A DNA stretch of 32,391 nt, from assembly GCA_003219265.1 (NCBI GenBank), contig QHQE01000141.1, positions 1 through 32,391 of the forward strand, read 5' to 3'. Source of the DNA: Verrucomicrobiota bacterium (GTDB taxonomy: Bacteria; Verrucomicrobiota; Verrucomicrobiia; Chthoniobacterales; UBA10450). The notes below the pieces were generated by a model. The model was not told the DNA's origin and did no database searches. It saw nothing but the letters and a program-made list of their open reading frames with translations. Of the stretch, positions 13,746 through 19,235 are shown one piece after another; the stretch's first letter is position 1, and each line of letters opens with the position of its first letter. The translations under genes were made by a program, and so were the position numbers.

Positions 13746-15344
13746 TCACTCGCATTCGCACACGACCCGGAAGCCGAGGTCGTTGCAGGAAAAAGTCGGC
13801 ACATTCGAGCCGCGCACGGTTGTTCTCAAGCTGTTGAAGCGCGATTTCCAACTGCCGCCACGATAAACGCGACGGTTGCCCATAGTGGGCCCGCGTGGGT
13901 TCACCTTCGGCGCCGGGCGATATGGCTCGTAGTAATCAAGACACCATTCCCAGACGTTCCCAGCCATGTCTTCCATGCCGAAGGCGCTGGCCCCGAAAGG
14001 GAATGCGCCCACCGGCGAGGTTTCCGGATACCCGTCGTCGATATCGCGGTCGCTCCAGGCAAAATTGGTATTGCGATCCGCGAAGTTTGCCAGATCGCCG
14101 CGACCTTCGTAATTGCCCCACGGATATTTTCTTCCGTCGGTGCCGCGTGCGGCATATTCCCATTCTGCTTCGGTGGGCAAACGATATTTCTTGCGTGTGC
14201 GCGCGCTCAACCATTGGCAGAACTTAATCGCCTCCAGGCTGCTGACATGGACGACCGGATGACGGTCGCCGGCGCCGGGCATTCGCTTGCGCACATGCGA
14301 GGGCTGGAACTGCTCGTAAGAGGCATTCGTGATCAAATGACGCGACAAATAAAAATGATTGAGGGTCACTCTGAATAGCGGCCCCTCGTTTGGCGCGGCC
14401 TCGGGCGCGTCGCTTCCCATCACGAATTCGCCCGCTGGGACAAAGAGCATTTCGCCAACCAGCGGATCCTGGAAATTGACATGCCGCCCATGCTCCGCCG
14501 GAACCTCGCTTTCGACGGCTGACGCACCATCGGCGACCGGCCTGGGCTCTGCTTCCCGCGGCGCCGGCCGGCTCACTTCGATCCGCGGCGCTTCCGGGGT
14601 GGCCTCTGCCGGGGAGGCGCCGTTGGCTTCTTCCAGATAAAGATCGACCAGGTCCTCCGCTTCATCTGCCTCGAGGCCGAGATTTTCAGCCATGTTGATG
14701 AACGCGTCGCGTTGGTCGTCCGTCATGTCCTCGCCATCGAGCCCGCTCAAACGAAGCATGCGCAGAAACTCTTCCTGCGGATTGGAAGATGCTTGGCCGT
14801 CTCTTTTCGGCGGTGAAACGGCCGCGGGCGGCGCAACTCGTTGAGCGCCGCTTTCCTTCAGTTTGCCCTCGATCCAGAAAATGATTTGCTCTTTGGTGAG
14901 CCCGTGTTCACGGCCAAAACGCATGAGATGTTTTTCTTGCTCGACGGTGAGCGTTCCGTCGCCGATGGCGAAGAGGAGATACTTCTGAAACTCTGCCACC
15001 GCCTCCTCATGTTCCTGGGCCGCGAGTTCGTCGTCCGCCGCGCGGCGACGCTCGGGATCGAGAAGCTCCACCCGCGCCTCGGTGAGGTAGCGGGACGATT
15101 CCTCCAGGCCGGCGCGGAGTAACTGCGCCAGAGGATTGCTGGGTTGATTTTTGAGTGGCAATTTTTTCTGCCACCAGCGCAACAGTTCCCGGCAATGTTC
15201 CTCGATCAGTTCGTTGCTCGGATTGGCCCGAGGATCAAGGCAAAGCCGCTCGTAGAAATTTGACGACCGGTACTTATTCCACCCATCCCATTTGTTTGGA
15301 TCGTCCGGCAGCGGAGTGGGAAAACTGATGTCGCATTTAGGCAT
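13746..15344 (-). CDS. Degenerate J-domain-like N-terminus, two helical modules and a C-terminal FGE/SUMF1-type domain
   Basis: N-term NFYERLCLDPRANPSNELIEEHCRELLRWW...YLTEARVELLDPERRRAADDEL resembles a J domain without HPD; C-term GEMLFVPAGEFVMGSDAPEAAPNEGPLFRVTLNHFYLSRHLITNASYEQF...RLPTEAEWEYAARGTDGRKYPWGN...DMAGNVWEWCLDYY...VYRGGSW...DLGFRVV is SUMF1/FGE-sulfatase. Confidence 0.85.
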   Translation of the reverse strand: MPKCDISFPTPLPDDPNKWDGWNKYRSSNFYERLCLDPRANPSNELIEEHCRELLRWWQKKLPLKNQPSNPLAQLLRAGLEESSRYLTEARVELLDPERRRAADDELAAQEHEEAVAEFQKYLLFAIGDGTLTVEQEKHLMRFGREHGLTKEQIIFWIEGKLKESGAQRVAPPAAVSPPKRDGQASSNPQEEFLRMLRLSGLDGEDMTDDQRDAFINMAENLGLEADEAEDLVDLYLEEANGASPAEATPEAPRIEVSRPAPREAEPRPVADGASAVESEVPAEHGRHVNFQDPLVGEMLFVPAGEFVMGSDAPEAAPNEGPLFRVTLNHFYLSRHLITNASYEQFQPSHVRKRMPGAGDRHPVVHVSSLEAIKFCQWLSARTRKKYRLPTEAEWEYAARGTDGRKYPWGNYEGRGDLANFADRNTNFAWSDRDIDDGYPETSPVGAFPFGASAFGMEDMAGNVWEWCLDYYEPYRPAPKVNPRGPTMGNRRVYRGGSWKSRFNSLRTTVRGSNVPTFSCNDLGFRVVCECE

Positions 15345-15346
15345 TC

Positions 15347-16909
15347 CTACTCAACGGTCACCTTTCCGAGACCGGAGATGGCCTTTTCCATTTCTTCTGG
15401 CGCCAGGCCTGTGTTGCGCTCGATCGATACCTTGGAGCGATTGCCGCATGCTTCCACGTTCACCTCTAGCACTTGATTGGCGTTGTAGTGATAGGTGAGT
15501 TCCACGGGAGAGCCTTTCGGTAAGAACGGCGGCAGTTGCACATCGCAAAGGCCCAATGGCGTGCATTCGCCCGGGAGCGTGCTTTCTCCTTCTACAACCT
15601 TGACCACGGCACGCTGCATGTTTGCGCTCGCGATGCCAAAGGAGTTTTTCGCGCTGGCCGGGATCGCGGTCCGCTTCCGGATCATCGGGAAGACATATTC
15701 CTCGAGGTGCGTTTCATCCCATAACACTACGCCGAGCGTGTGTGAGGTGATGTCGGTGATCTGAATCAAATGGCCATCGCGAGACGAAAATTGCTGCCGC
15801 GTATTTTCGCCGAGCAGTTTTTTGCCGGTCTTTTCTTCCTCGCGCAACATCGACAAGGTGGCTTGAATCGCCGCGCCCACTGCCACCGCTTCATCCGGGT
15901 TCATGTCGCTGACGAGTGGCGCGGAAGACAATTGCGAAATCATCTCGCGCACCATCGGCATGCGGGTCATACCTCCGATCAGTAGGATCTTGTCGATGTT
16001 GTCCCACTTCATTTTCGCCTCCTGCATCACGATCTCGCAAATCGTTTTGCACTTCTCGATCAGATGACGGCTGCGCTCTTCAAAATCTTCCCGGGTCAAC
16101 TCCACTTTCACGCTTTTGCCGTTGTGATGGTGGACGATGGCGGTATGTGGCCGGCTTGAAAGCTGGATCTTGCCGGCCAACGCGCGGGTCTGGAGGTCTT
16201 GATAACTTGCCAGATCGAGCAGCGGGTTTTCGCCATGCGCAGCGCTATACTCTTCCGCCACCAGATTAACGATCACGTCGTCCCAATCTTTGCCGCCCAG
16301 GCGGTGATCGCCGTTGGTCGCGATCATCTCGATCTTTTGGTCCTCGATCCGCATGATGGTGACGTCGAAAGTGCCCCCGCCAAGATCGAAAACGAACACC
16401 GTCTGGTTCTCGTCGAGCTTGTCGAGCCCGTAAGCGAGCGCCGCCGCCGTCGGCTCGTTGATAATCTGGAGAACGTTTAATCCCGCCAATTGTCCGGCGG
16501 TAATGGTGGCCGTGCGCTCGGCGTCGTTAAAGTATGCCGGAACAGTGATGACCGCATCGGTTACTGGCGCCTGTAAATATTTTTCCGCATCCGCTTTCAA
16601 CTTTTTCACAATGAGCGCGGAGAGTTCTTCCGCAGAATAAAGTTTGCCGCCGAATTCGCGGTGAAATTGCTCCTTCGGTTTGCCCATCTCGCGCTTGACG
16701 AAATCGACAATCTTCTCCGGCTCGGAGACCGAGTTGTTCTTGGCGAGCGTGCCCACGATCGCGCTCTCGCCGTCGAACAGAATCACCGAGGGAGTGATCC
16801 GTTCACTCTCGGCGTTGGGAATGATCTGCGGTTTGCCGTAGGCATCGATGTGCGCCCCAGCGGAGAAGGTAGTGCCCAGATCGATCCCGATTGCTTTGCG
16901 CTCGCTCAT
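15347..16909 (-). CDS. Short DnaK/Hsp70-like protein (520 aa), NBD plus beta-SBD, no helical lid or EEVD-type tail
   Basis: IGIDLGTTFSAGAHID...VITVPAYFNDAERTATITAGQLAGLNVLQIINEPTAAALAYGLD...VFDLGGGTFDVTI...ILLIGGMTRMPMVREMI...DMNPDEAVAVGAAIQ; ends soon after the beta-SBD. Confidence 0.92.
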   Translation of the reverse strand: MSERKAIGIDLGTTFSAGAHIDAYGKPQIIPNAESERITPSVILFDGESAIVGTLAKNNSVSEPEKIVDFVKREMGKPKEQFHREFGGKLYSAEELSALIVKKLKADAEKYLQAPVTDAVITVPAYFNDAERTATITAGQLAGLNVLQIINEPTAAALAYGLDKLDENQTVFVFDLGGGTFDVTIMRIEDQKIEMIATNGDHRLGGKDWDDVIVNLVAEEYSAAHGENPLLDLASYQDLQTRALAGKIQLSSRPHTAIVHHHNGKSVKVELTREDFEERSRHLIEKCKTICEIVMQEAKMKWDNIDKILLIGGMTRMPMVREMISQLSSAPLVSDMNPDEAVAVGAAIQATLSMLREEEKTGKKLLGENTRQQFSSRDGHLIQITDITSHTLGVVLWDETHLEEYVFPMIRKRTAIPASAKNSFGIASANMQRAVVKVVEGESTLPGECTPLGLCDVQLPPFLPKGSPVELTYHYNANQVLEVNVEACGNRSKVSIERNTGLAPEEMEKAISGLGKVTVE

Positions 16910-16978
16910 AAGTGGGAAATGAGATTGTCGATATTATTTACCGCGTGCGGAGCTTGCAGTGCAGTTTCCATGCCCCGG

Positions 16979-17692
16979 TCAGTTGAACCGTTTTGCGATA
17001 ACTTCTTCGGCTCGAATCACCTTGCCACGCCAGCAGAATCCTCGCTTCACCCGCATCACGATGCGCCCATCCTCTTCTGCAAAATCCGCCGGCTCATAAC
17101 TAACGACGCGATGAATTGCGCGGTCCACGCTCTCCTGCGGTTCGATTTCTTTGACATCGAGCCGATGGAAAATTTCCACGAGCGAATGAATGGCGTTCTC
17201 CAGGTTATCACGCCATTGCGCGACGCTATCATGCTGGCCCTTCACCGCGGTTCGCAACTGCTCGGAGAGCCCGCTGAGGTCGTCAAAAAGAAGAATGAGA
17301 TCGTGAATGAACGGCTTCTGGAGCGATTCGTGCAGAAAATTGTCGCGATATTTCAGGAGCTCCTCGTGCAGCGAATCGTACAAGCGCTGATTCACCCCTT
17401 CGCTGGTACGAATGGCCGCCAGGTGTTCGTCAATTTTTTGGAAATGTTCCGCGAGATCGACCGGCTCGCTCAATGGAATCATTGCTCCGAGTTGTTCGAT
17501 CTGTTTGGAAAGCGCGGTCTCGACGCTCTGGACATGAGCGTTCAACGCCCGAAATTCCCGCGCTAGCTCCCCGGCATCTCGCAGACGCTCCGGCTGCTCC
17601 GCTTGGTTCGGCGGGACTGGTTGTTTGGCTTCCGCGGTGAGCTGCTGCATCGCCGCTGCAAATTCGTCCGGCGCCTTTGTTCCGTTAGCCAT
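16979..17692 (-). CDS. Divergent GrpE-like nucleotide exchange factor
   Basis: Helical N-terminal region, then LLLFDDLSGL...DVKEIEPQESVDRAIHRVVSYEPADFAEEDGRIVMRVKRGFCWRGKVIRAEEVIAKRF, resembling the GrpE beta domain; adjacent to a dnaK-like gene. Confidence 0.75.
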   Translation of the reverse strand: MANGTKAPDEFAAAMQQLTAEAKQPVPPNQAEQPERLRDAGELAREFRALNAHVQSVETALSKQIEQLGAMIPLSEPVDLAEHFQKIDEHLAAIRTSEGVNQRLYDSLHEELLKYRDNFLHESLQKPFIHDLILLFDDLSGLSEQLRTAVKGQHDSVAQWRDNLENAIHSLVEIFHRLDVKEIEPQESVDRAIHRVVSYEPADFAEEDGRIVMRVKRGFCWRGKVIRAEEVIAKRFN

Positions 17693-19235
17693 GACCTTTT
17701 CCCTTCTCGAAGAACTCCCGAATCGCCTCGACTAAGCCGCCGATATCGTGCCGGCGCGCTTCGATCTCGATCTTCAAACCGTGATCGCGGGCCGTCTTCG
17801 ACGTGATCGGACCGATGCTCGCGACCTGCATCCCTTCCGGCCAGGGCAAACCAAGCGTGAGAAAATTCTCCACTGTCGATGAGCTCGTGAAGGTGATCAG
17901 ATCCGCGCCTTCCTCCAATAGATGCCGGCGCGCACCCGTAGTGTCGCGCGTCTCTGGAACCGTGCGATAAGCCAAACCTTCGTCCACAATTGCTCCCAAA
18001 GCCGAGAGTTGTTTAGCCAGCACGTCCCGCGCCTTTTCTGCGCGTACGAGCAGAATTCGCAAATTTTCCACGCCGCCCTGTCTTTGAAATTCGCTGACGA
18101 CCGCTTCCGCGACGAATTCGTCCGGTTGAAGATCGACATGCAGGTGAAAATCTTTGACCCGTTGCGCTGTTGCCGGGCCGATGGCGGCGATCCGCGCCCC
18201 GCCGATCTCGCGCCCGTCGTCATAAAGCTTGAAGAAGATTTCGAAAAACGCCTCGACGCCGTTCGCACTCGTAAAAACGATCCAGTCGTAACTGTGCGCG
18301 TCCTGAACCAGCTCCGCGAAGGCGCGCAAATCGCCCGGTGGCTCGATCCGAATCGTTGGCAATTCAAATACGTAGGCGCCGAGAGCGCGCAATTGCGCGC
18401 TCAATTCGCCAGCTTGTTTTCGCGTGCGCGTAACGACGATCCGTTTCCCGGAAAGCGGCCTCTTCTCGTACCAATTCAAACTTTCCCGCAAGGCGACGAC
18501 TTCGCCAAAAACCGCCACCGCCGGAGCTTCGAAGCCAACACCGGCCACGCGCTGCGCGATGTTTTGAAGTGTTCCAGTCAATGTTTCCTGCCGGCCAGTC
18601 GTCGCCCAACGCACGAGCGCGACCGGCAAATCCTCGCGCACCCCTTGCTTAAGCATTTCTCGCGCGATCGATTCAAGACGTTGCACGCCCATCAGCATCA
18701 CTTGCGTGCCGCCCAGTTTCGCCAGCGCCGCGTAATCAATCGGGCTTCCAGTTTTCTCTGGATCCTCGTGGCCGGTGAAAAAAGTCACGTGCGAATTTTC
18801 CGCGCGATGCGTCACCGGAATTCCGGCGTAGGCCGGCCCGGCGATCGCCGAGGTAATTCCGGGCACAATTTCAAATTCAATTCCAGCATCGACAATCGCG
18901 CTTGCCTCTTCCGCGCCGCGTCCAAAAACAAACGGATCGCCGCCCTTCAACCGGACAACTTGTTTTCCTGCGCGCGCTCGTTCGACCAGGAGCACGTTGA
19001 TTTTTTCCTGACCGAGCGCGTGTTCGCCGGCCCTCTTTCCGACGTAAATGATCTCTGCATCATCACGCGCCCAACTCAGCATTTCCGGATTCGCCAGATG
19101 ATCGTACACGATCACGTCCGCCTGCTCGATGCATTCCTTCGCGCGCAATGTGACTAGGCCGAGATCGCCGGGCCCGGCGCCAACGAGAAAACATCTCCCC
19201 ACGTTCTCGTTCGTACTCTTACTCTTACTCTCCAT
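17685..19235 (-). CDS. cobA-hemD: Fused uroporphyrinogen-III C-methyltransferase / uroporphyrinogen-III synthase
   Basis: CobA motifs VGAGPGDLGLVTLRAKE, VRLKGGDPFVFGRGAEE, PGITSAIAGPAYAGIPVTHR; C-terminal HemD half GKRIVVTRTRKQAGELSAQLRALGAYVFELPTIRIEPP...DWIVFTSANGVEAFF. Confidence 0.95.
   Translation of the reverse strand: MESKSKSTNENVGRCFLVGAGPGDLGLVTLRAKECIEQADVIVYDHLANPEMLSWARDDAEIIYVGKRAGEHALGQEKINVLLVERARAGKQVVRLKGGDPFVFGRGAEEASAIVDAGIEFEIVPGITSAIAGPAYAGIPVTHRAENSHVTFFTGHEDPEKTGSPIDYAALAKLGGTQVMLMGVQRLESIAREMLKQGVREDLPVALVRWATTGRQETLTGTLQNIAQRVAGVGFEAPAVAVFGEVVALRESLNWYEKRPLSGKRIVVTRTRKQAGELSAQLRALGAYVFELPTIRIEPPGDLRAFAELVQDAHSYDWIVFTSANGVEAFFEIFFKLYDDGREIGGARIAAIGPATAQRVKDFHLHVDLQPDEFVAEAVVSEFQRQGGVENLRILLVRAEKARDVLAKQLSALGAIVDEGLAYRTVPETRDTTGARRHLLEEGADLITFTSSSTVENFLTLGLPWPEGMQVASIGPITSKTARDHGLKIEIEARRHDIGGLVEAIREFFEKGKGHG

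Follow-up and report, generated by a model that had tools for sequence, protein, structure and literature searches.

An operon of Chthoniobacterales encoding GrpE, a lidless Hsp70 and a J-like/SUMF1 fusion with altered residues on both sides of the Hsp70-J interface

How can an Hsp70 chaperone be served by a J-like partner when the chaperone has no helical lid and the partner has no His-Pro-Asp (HPD) motif? This question is raised by three adjacent minus-strand open reading frames at positions 13746-17692 of a 32,391-nucleotide contig (QHQE01000141.1, assembly GCA_003219265.1; C36 in our numbering) from a Verrucomicrobiota bacterium of the order Chthoniobacterales. This contig, here called the window, belongs to a 2.09-Mb metagenome assembly that is 84% complete. 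The three genes encode, in this order, GrpE2, a divergent GrpE-type nucleotide exchange factor of 237 aa (16979..17692; Pfam GrpE, 3.7e-11), an Hsp70 of 520 aa (15347..16909; Pfam HSP70, 3.6e-122) and a J-like/SUMF1 protein of 532 aa (13746..15344; Pfam FGE-sulfatase, 3.7e-53), the latter starting 2 nt after the Hsp70 stop. An initial annotation made from the DNA letters had proposed these same genes, with the same spacing, as a specialised paralogous Hsp70 machine, and the open reading frames and Pfam matches agree with it. Here, we report that the unit is conserved, that its Hsp70 lacks a lid, and that residues are exchanged at both the Hsp70 and the J side of their presumed contact. We lean, if only slightly, towards a dedicated Hsp70 machine in which J/SUMF1 acts as a client adaptor that docks by rewired chemistry.

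The locus is not the housekeeping DnaK system, as the same genome carries canonical dnaK on contig C112, grpE and dnaJ on C1 and a second DnaJ gene on C80; had it held the only dnaK and grpE, the proposal of a paralogous machine would have failed. In a census of 147 related genomes, the Hsp70 orthologue was found in 54 and J/SUMF1 likewise in 54, with both in 53. One genome has the Hsp70 alone and one J/SUMF1 alone, each match lying near a contig end, so that the missing partner may perhaps be unassembled. Since shared ancestry inflates such co-occurrence statistics, Fisher's test is not meaningful here. Gene order was scored in 72 loci from GTDB species genomes, with counts taken over testable loci. 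J/SUMF1 is immediately preceded by the Hsp70 in 65 of 66, the exception (L122) being an orphan paralogue, and GrpE2 is present in 51 of 58; the conserved synteny expected of a specialised machine is thus found. GrpE2 has been lost in one clade (L110, L111, L114, L116, L127), which retains hemD-Hsp70-J/SUMF1. The draft genome of Chthoniobacter flavus Ellin428 (L109:4333-7900) shows apparent frameshifts or stops in both Hsp70 and J/SUMF1, from sequencing error or decay.

Outside the order, the J/SUMF1 profile gave no match among 289 genomes drawn from the phylum, and the Hsp70 search revealed one genome of the same class (G461) with a full triad and no adjoining hem genes. The triad is almost confined to the soil-dwelling Chthoniobacterales, one genome of another order in the class also having it, and the cassette is ancient. 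In the sister genus g5 of the same family, hemA-hemC-hemD faces secDF and the whole triad is cleanly absent between hemD and secDF. As the triad also adjoins secDF in another family of the order (L050), the gap is best explained by loss of the whole block.

The Hsp70 comprises a nucleotide-binding domain, an insertion of about 15-20 residues before the linker and the beta substrate-binding domain, and it stops close to where lid helix A would begin. Canonical DnaK has about 640 aa. Complete relatives of the triad Hsp70 measure 509-533 aa and end at the same place, as the initial annotation had read for the window; a frameshift or a lost lid exon was rejected as the cause of the short C-terminus, since these complete relatives are equally short. 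The protein thus has the features that define the Hsp70 superfamily, a nucleotide-binding domain with ATPase residues and a beta substrate-binding domain, and lacks those of a canonical DnaK, namely the helical lid, the C-terminal tail and unchanged R167/D393 positions for J docking.

An alignment was built from 63 orthologues, 21 canonical DnaKs from within the order and E. coli DnaK, HscA and HscC (DnaK numbering is used below). No readable orthologue has lost any of the ATPase residues D8, K70, P143, D148, R151, E171 and T199. By comparison, R167, the partner of the HPD aspartate, is arginine in 21/21 canonical DnaKs, in HscA and in HscC, and is replaced in the 62 readable orthologues by Q (58), S (2), N (1) or K (1); in the window it is Q148 (16466..16468). 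At E206 on the J-docking face the charge is reversed, with R in 57, K in 4, Q in 1 and E in 1 of the 63 orthologues (R187 in the window, 16349..16351), compared to E in 18 and Q in 3 of the canonical DnaKs. The linker residue D393, retained in 21/21 canonical DnaKs, HscA and HscC, is N in 52/63 and D in 11/63 orthologues, the window's Hsp70 (D386, 15752..15754) being among the latter. L390 and L392 have become polar. Other J-docking positions are retained: Q378 (62/63), the invariant P419, N170 and T173. The lid latch residues are gone (R467 to P, D431 mostly to A), V436 is mostly A, and L1,2 carries a short insertion. The residues R56, E264 and E267, which form salt bridges across the nucleotide cleft, are also replaced, and this may accelerate ADP release. 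Deletion of the GrpE-signature loop was rejected as a hallmark of the triad, as the loop is also absent in 15/21 canonical DnaKs of the order.

In E. coli, HscC with DjlB/DjlC offers a close parallel to an Hsp70 of this kind, being a short paralogue with its own unusual J-protein encoded adjacent; the motif of DjlC is HPE, not HPD. HscC shares with the triad Hsp70 a deletion of DnaK 76-101 and the insertion in L1,2 (our alignment; PMC8215388). Unlike the triad Hsp70, it keeps R167, E206, D393 and part of the lid (556 aa), and it is thought not to use GrpE. Membership of the HscC group was rejected by these residues and by the tree described below, in which HscC is represented by one sequence; in addition, GrpE2 adjoins the triad Hsp70 in most loci.

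On the J side, the annotation's term 'J-like' stood as regards the fold, even though sequence-profile searches of Pfam and the PDB gave no J-domain match in this region; it had overlooked that the HPD motif is missing. Since the helical tail had blurred a fold search with residues 1-245, residues 1-115 were used. AlphaFold modelled these from 49 homologues with a predicted local distance difference test score of 86.6 (pLDDT) and a predicted template modelling score of 0.76 (pTM). Foldseek placed J-domains or J-domain fusions in the first nine positions of its PDB ranking (best probability 0.99), and a profile comparison with canonical J-domains extended over the whole domain (P 1.1e-4). A J fold with helices I-IV is thus supported for the N-terminus of J/SUMF1 by modelling (residues 20-114, 15003..15287).

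In the DnaK-DnaJ crystal structure, the HPD motif makes contacts from H33 to the L391 backbone, from P34 to P419 and from D35 to R167 and Q378 (review PMC8215388). No readable J/SUMF1 homologue has an HPD motif. Its place is taken by WWQKKLPLKNQPSNP (residues 57-71, 15132..15176), which is almost invariant in 49 homologues and includes WWQKKLPLKN. The profile alignment sets HPDRN opposite LPLKN; if this is correct, J/SUMF1 would retain the proline for packing against P419, and neither partner of the D35-R167 pair would remain. In helix II, DnaJ R22 aligns with the nearly invariant E48 of J/SUMF1, which is of opposite charge, just as the charge at Hsp70 E206 is reversed, and E48 may meet the residue at that position. 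As the HPD motif is absent, the normal ATPase-stimulating action of a J component is not to be assumed. The J-like domain is followed by two helical segments, recognised from family conservation: Mid1 (residues 118-170, 14835..14993, 'FqkyL.FA.aDG.LT..E') and Mid2 (residues 189-242, 14619..14780, 'MTDDQRDAfiNMAEnLGL...AEDlVDeYL'), the latter predicted as three confident helices.

The C-terminal SUMF1/FGE-type domain (residues 297-528, 13761..14456), of C-type-lectin fold, is clearly homologous to human FGE (phmmer, 8e-34). Unlike in FGE, the active-site cysteine pair is replaced: GGSWKSRFNSLR aligns with the FGE region around GGSYMCHRSYC, and none of 24 orthologues has a cysteine at the aligned positions. 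A C-terminal CEC of the domain is nearly invariant. An active FGE enzyme was therefore rejected, and because of this replacement the domain is not expected to oxidise sulfatases. The fold family points instead to a putative binding role, which the loss of the cysteines fits. Four triad-bearing genomes carry an additional, orphan J/SUMF1 paralogue that has neither Hsp70 nor GrpE in its vicinity (L190:5321-6949, L191:2637-4256, L192:6341-7975, L193:5829-7415), as expected if J/SUMF1 proteins were interchangeable adaptors.

GrpE2 matches the GrpE profile including the C-terminal beta-wing, and its family profile aligns through the C-terminal half with the solved GrpE structures 4ani (1.9e-6) and 1dkg (3.6e-6). 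The triad resembles DnaK-DnaJ-GrpE in its three-part logic and intact ATPase residues, and differs in lacking the lid and the HPD motif, in its altered docking residues and in having SUMF1 where DnaJ has its zinc and substrate domains.

Relatives of these parts occur in other Verrucomicrobiota, where two to four short Hsp70s and then a double-zinc-ribbon (DZR) protein of about 900 aa come after GrpE. The N-terminus of these 900-aa proteins resembles the J-like region plus Mid1 of the triad in collinear order (profile P 3.3e-4), and no HPD motif is present in the J-like N-termini read from L181, L182 and L185. In L182:3895-16999, GrpE, three or four Hsp70s and a zinc-ribbon J-like protein precede DO-GTPase2 and GAP1-N2; L181:6379-16999 has the same series, its last Hsp70 fused to vWA, followed by DO-GTPase2. 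In genus g43 (L185:5554-9886, L194:1444-5776), GrpE, two tandem Hsp70s of 557-561 aa and a 900-aa zinc-ribbon protein adjoin genes for a P-loop NTPase and a type IV secretion coupling protein, with no GTPase detected. Further arrangements are found elsewhere: a GrpE2-like gene adjoins a tandem pair of short Hsp70s of 509 and 515 aa in L057:348-4187; in L184:319-3338, a HerA-like ATPase precedes GrpE and an Hsp70 of 526 aa, after which comes a gene with a vWA domain; and in L183:2153-4928, an Hsp70 of 530 aa stands before a protein that combines a J-like N-terminus lacking HPD with a zinc ribbon and a DUF4190 membrane region. The L183 pair may be a further version of the module.

In the tree, the triad Hsp70s form one clade (support 100) on the short-Hsp70 side, apart from DnaK, HscA and HscC, with deep supports of 55-87 and a single HscC sequence. 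The L057 proteins are among the nearest to this clade (40-44% identity) and retain R167; the residue is missing in several relatives' short Hsp70s, but those fused to vWA have it. Within the order, a second DnaK-like clade of shorter proteins, mostly open frames of 580-700 aa (L055:2141-3910, L142-L152, L154, L158-L161), groups with HscA and not with E. coli DnaK (support 95).

Operons of GrpE, HSP70 and DnaJ-like genes are known from within GAP1-N2 GTPase-centric systems, in which FGS domains often act as effectors (Kaur et al. 2020, PMC7159879). The view of the initial annotation that the triad is undescribed therefore needs qualification: a stand-alone J/SUMF1 triad was not found in the literature searched (open-licence PMC papers), whereas the GrpE/short Hsp70/DnaJ-like combination is published. 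We infer a shared origin, with the triad as a stand-alone, vertically inherited version of a module of GrpE, short Hsp70 and HPD-less J-like protein. Its parts come from known families and the nearest system has been described; what is new is the twist at the Hsp70-J interface.

How, then, might the triad work? Starting from what is read directly in sequences and models, we propose a dedicated, probably cytosolic machine whose three products would form a physical complex. The Hsp70 would be an active ATPase, as its conserved residues suggest, with a peptide-binding half that has no lid; without it, rapid binding and release of clients are expected instead of locking on. GrpE2 would serve as the Hsp70's own nucleotide exchange factor and reset it. 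The J fold of J/SUMF1 would dock close to the linker, where J-domains usually bind, by a different chemistry, with an LPL-like segment for HPD, Q for R167, the proline contact kept and charges exchanged between J helix II and the nucleotide-binding domain, while the SUMF1 domain would recognise a client or ligand. A more specific version is co-evolved re-matching, in which both sides of the HPD-R167 pair were exchanged together, the J-like domain drives the lidless Hsp70 via WWQKKLPLKN and the SUMF1-fold domain guides it to clients; this we put forward only tentatively, as somewhat doubtful.

Several observations weigh against the proposal of a dedicated machine with a J/SUMF1 adaptor. For the J region, no Foldseek E-value is below 0.4. 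Where HPD falls in the altered loop depends on the alignment, with QKK, LPL or NQP as possible counterparts. Loss of R56, E264 and E267 could make an exchange factor less necessary, and the GrpE2-less clade shows no obvious change at the GrpE-facing Hsp70 positions examined. The deep supports of the tree are modest. Finally, the complex, the ATPase role and the client are proposals from sequence, and no client gene was identified.

Among the rival explanations, one regards the J-like domain as a regulator or tether that holds the Hsp70 on a SUMF1 ligand; either the client by itself or a canonical DnaJ acting in trans would then drive hydrolysis. A precedent is Pam16/Tim16, a mitochondrial J-like protein that has, as does J/SUMF1, a J fold without HPD, and other HPD-less J-like proteins are known. 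The genome also offers two canonical DnaJ genes, HPD is missing from every readable copy, and in all J-protein systems tested its replacement abolished stimulation (review PMC8215388). Compared to Pam16/Tim16-type proteins, however, the Hsp70 partner in the triad has itself lost the HPD-binding residue and the operon includes no HPD-bearing J partner; with R167 lost, a normal DnaJ seems unlikely to assist in trans, and the almost invariant replacement motif suggests a positive role. We thus regard a tether as unlikely, though worth keeping in mind. An ordinary diverged DnaK paralogue whose operon happens to include an unrelated SUMF1 enzyme would fit the general abundance of SUMF1-domain proteins in the phylum; near-perfect co-occurrence and adjacency, the J fold and the missing FGE cysteines speak against it so clearly that we give it very little credence.

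The genomic setting raises two further alternatives. The triad lies downstream of hemA, hemC and a cobA/hemD fusion (17685..19235, minus strand; Pfam TP_methylase and HEM4), whose end overlaps the GrpE2 start by 8 nt, and faces a convergent secDF on its other side. The linkage is conserved, hemD lying upstream in 47 of 55 testable loci, and in G092 GrpE2 still stands beside hemD although Hsp70-J/SUMF1 is located elsewhere. This arrangement could be accounted for by a chaperone dedicated to enzymes of tetrapyrrole synthesis (HemA, HemC or CobA/HemD) that share its transcript. Genus g5, however, retains the hem genes without the triad, several loci as well as G461 have the triad without hemD, and linkage alone may be inherited, so that this role appears improbable. 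A conflict system of the immunity type, that is, a reduced GAP1-N2-like module with SUMF1/FGS as effector or recognition domain, is suggested by the Verrucomicrobiota relatives in which GrpE, several short Hsp70s and J-like DZR proteins stand with DO-GTPase2 and GAP1-N2, and by the frequency of FGS effectors in such systems (PMC7159879). The likeness to GAP1-N2 systems lies in a GrpE gene adjacent to at least one short Hsp70 gene and in a protein whose N-terminus is J-like, DnaJ-FNIII in Kaur et al. (2020, PMC7159879). The triad differs from them in having no GTPase, GAP1, vWA or DZR part, a J region fused to SUMF1, a single Hsp70 and vertical inheritance across the order. Neither GAP1-N2 nor DO-GTPase2 was found in this genome at its 84% completeness, and ten window neighbours scanned include no GAP1-N2/DO-GTPase gene; a present-day GAP1-N2 system was rejected for this genome on these grounds. 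Moreover, the fixed chromosomal site beside hemD, the single copy and the vertical pattern are unlike a mobile defence system, and SUMF1 is conserved, not hypervariable. A conflict role is in our judgement quite improbable, a shade more so than the tetrapyrrole role.

HPD has been treated as the sole indispensable feature of J-proteins, and here dozens of species conserve an operon without HPD whose Hsp70 has no matching arginine. The triad thereby offers a natural experiment in the rebuilding of the Hsp70-J interface and in the working of a lidless Hsp70. Through it, moreover, an operon of housekeeping-like character is connected with the pool of short Hsp70s seen in GTPase-centred conflict systems, a pool that includes the g43 operon, in which no GTPase was detected.

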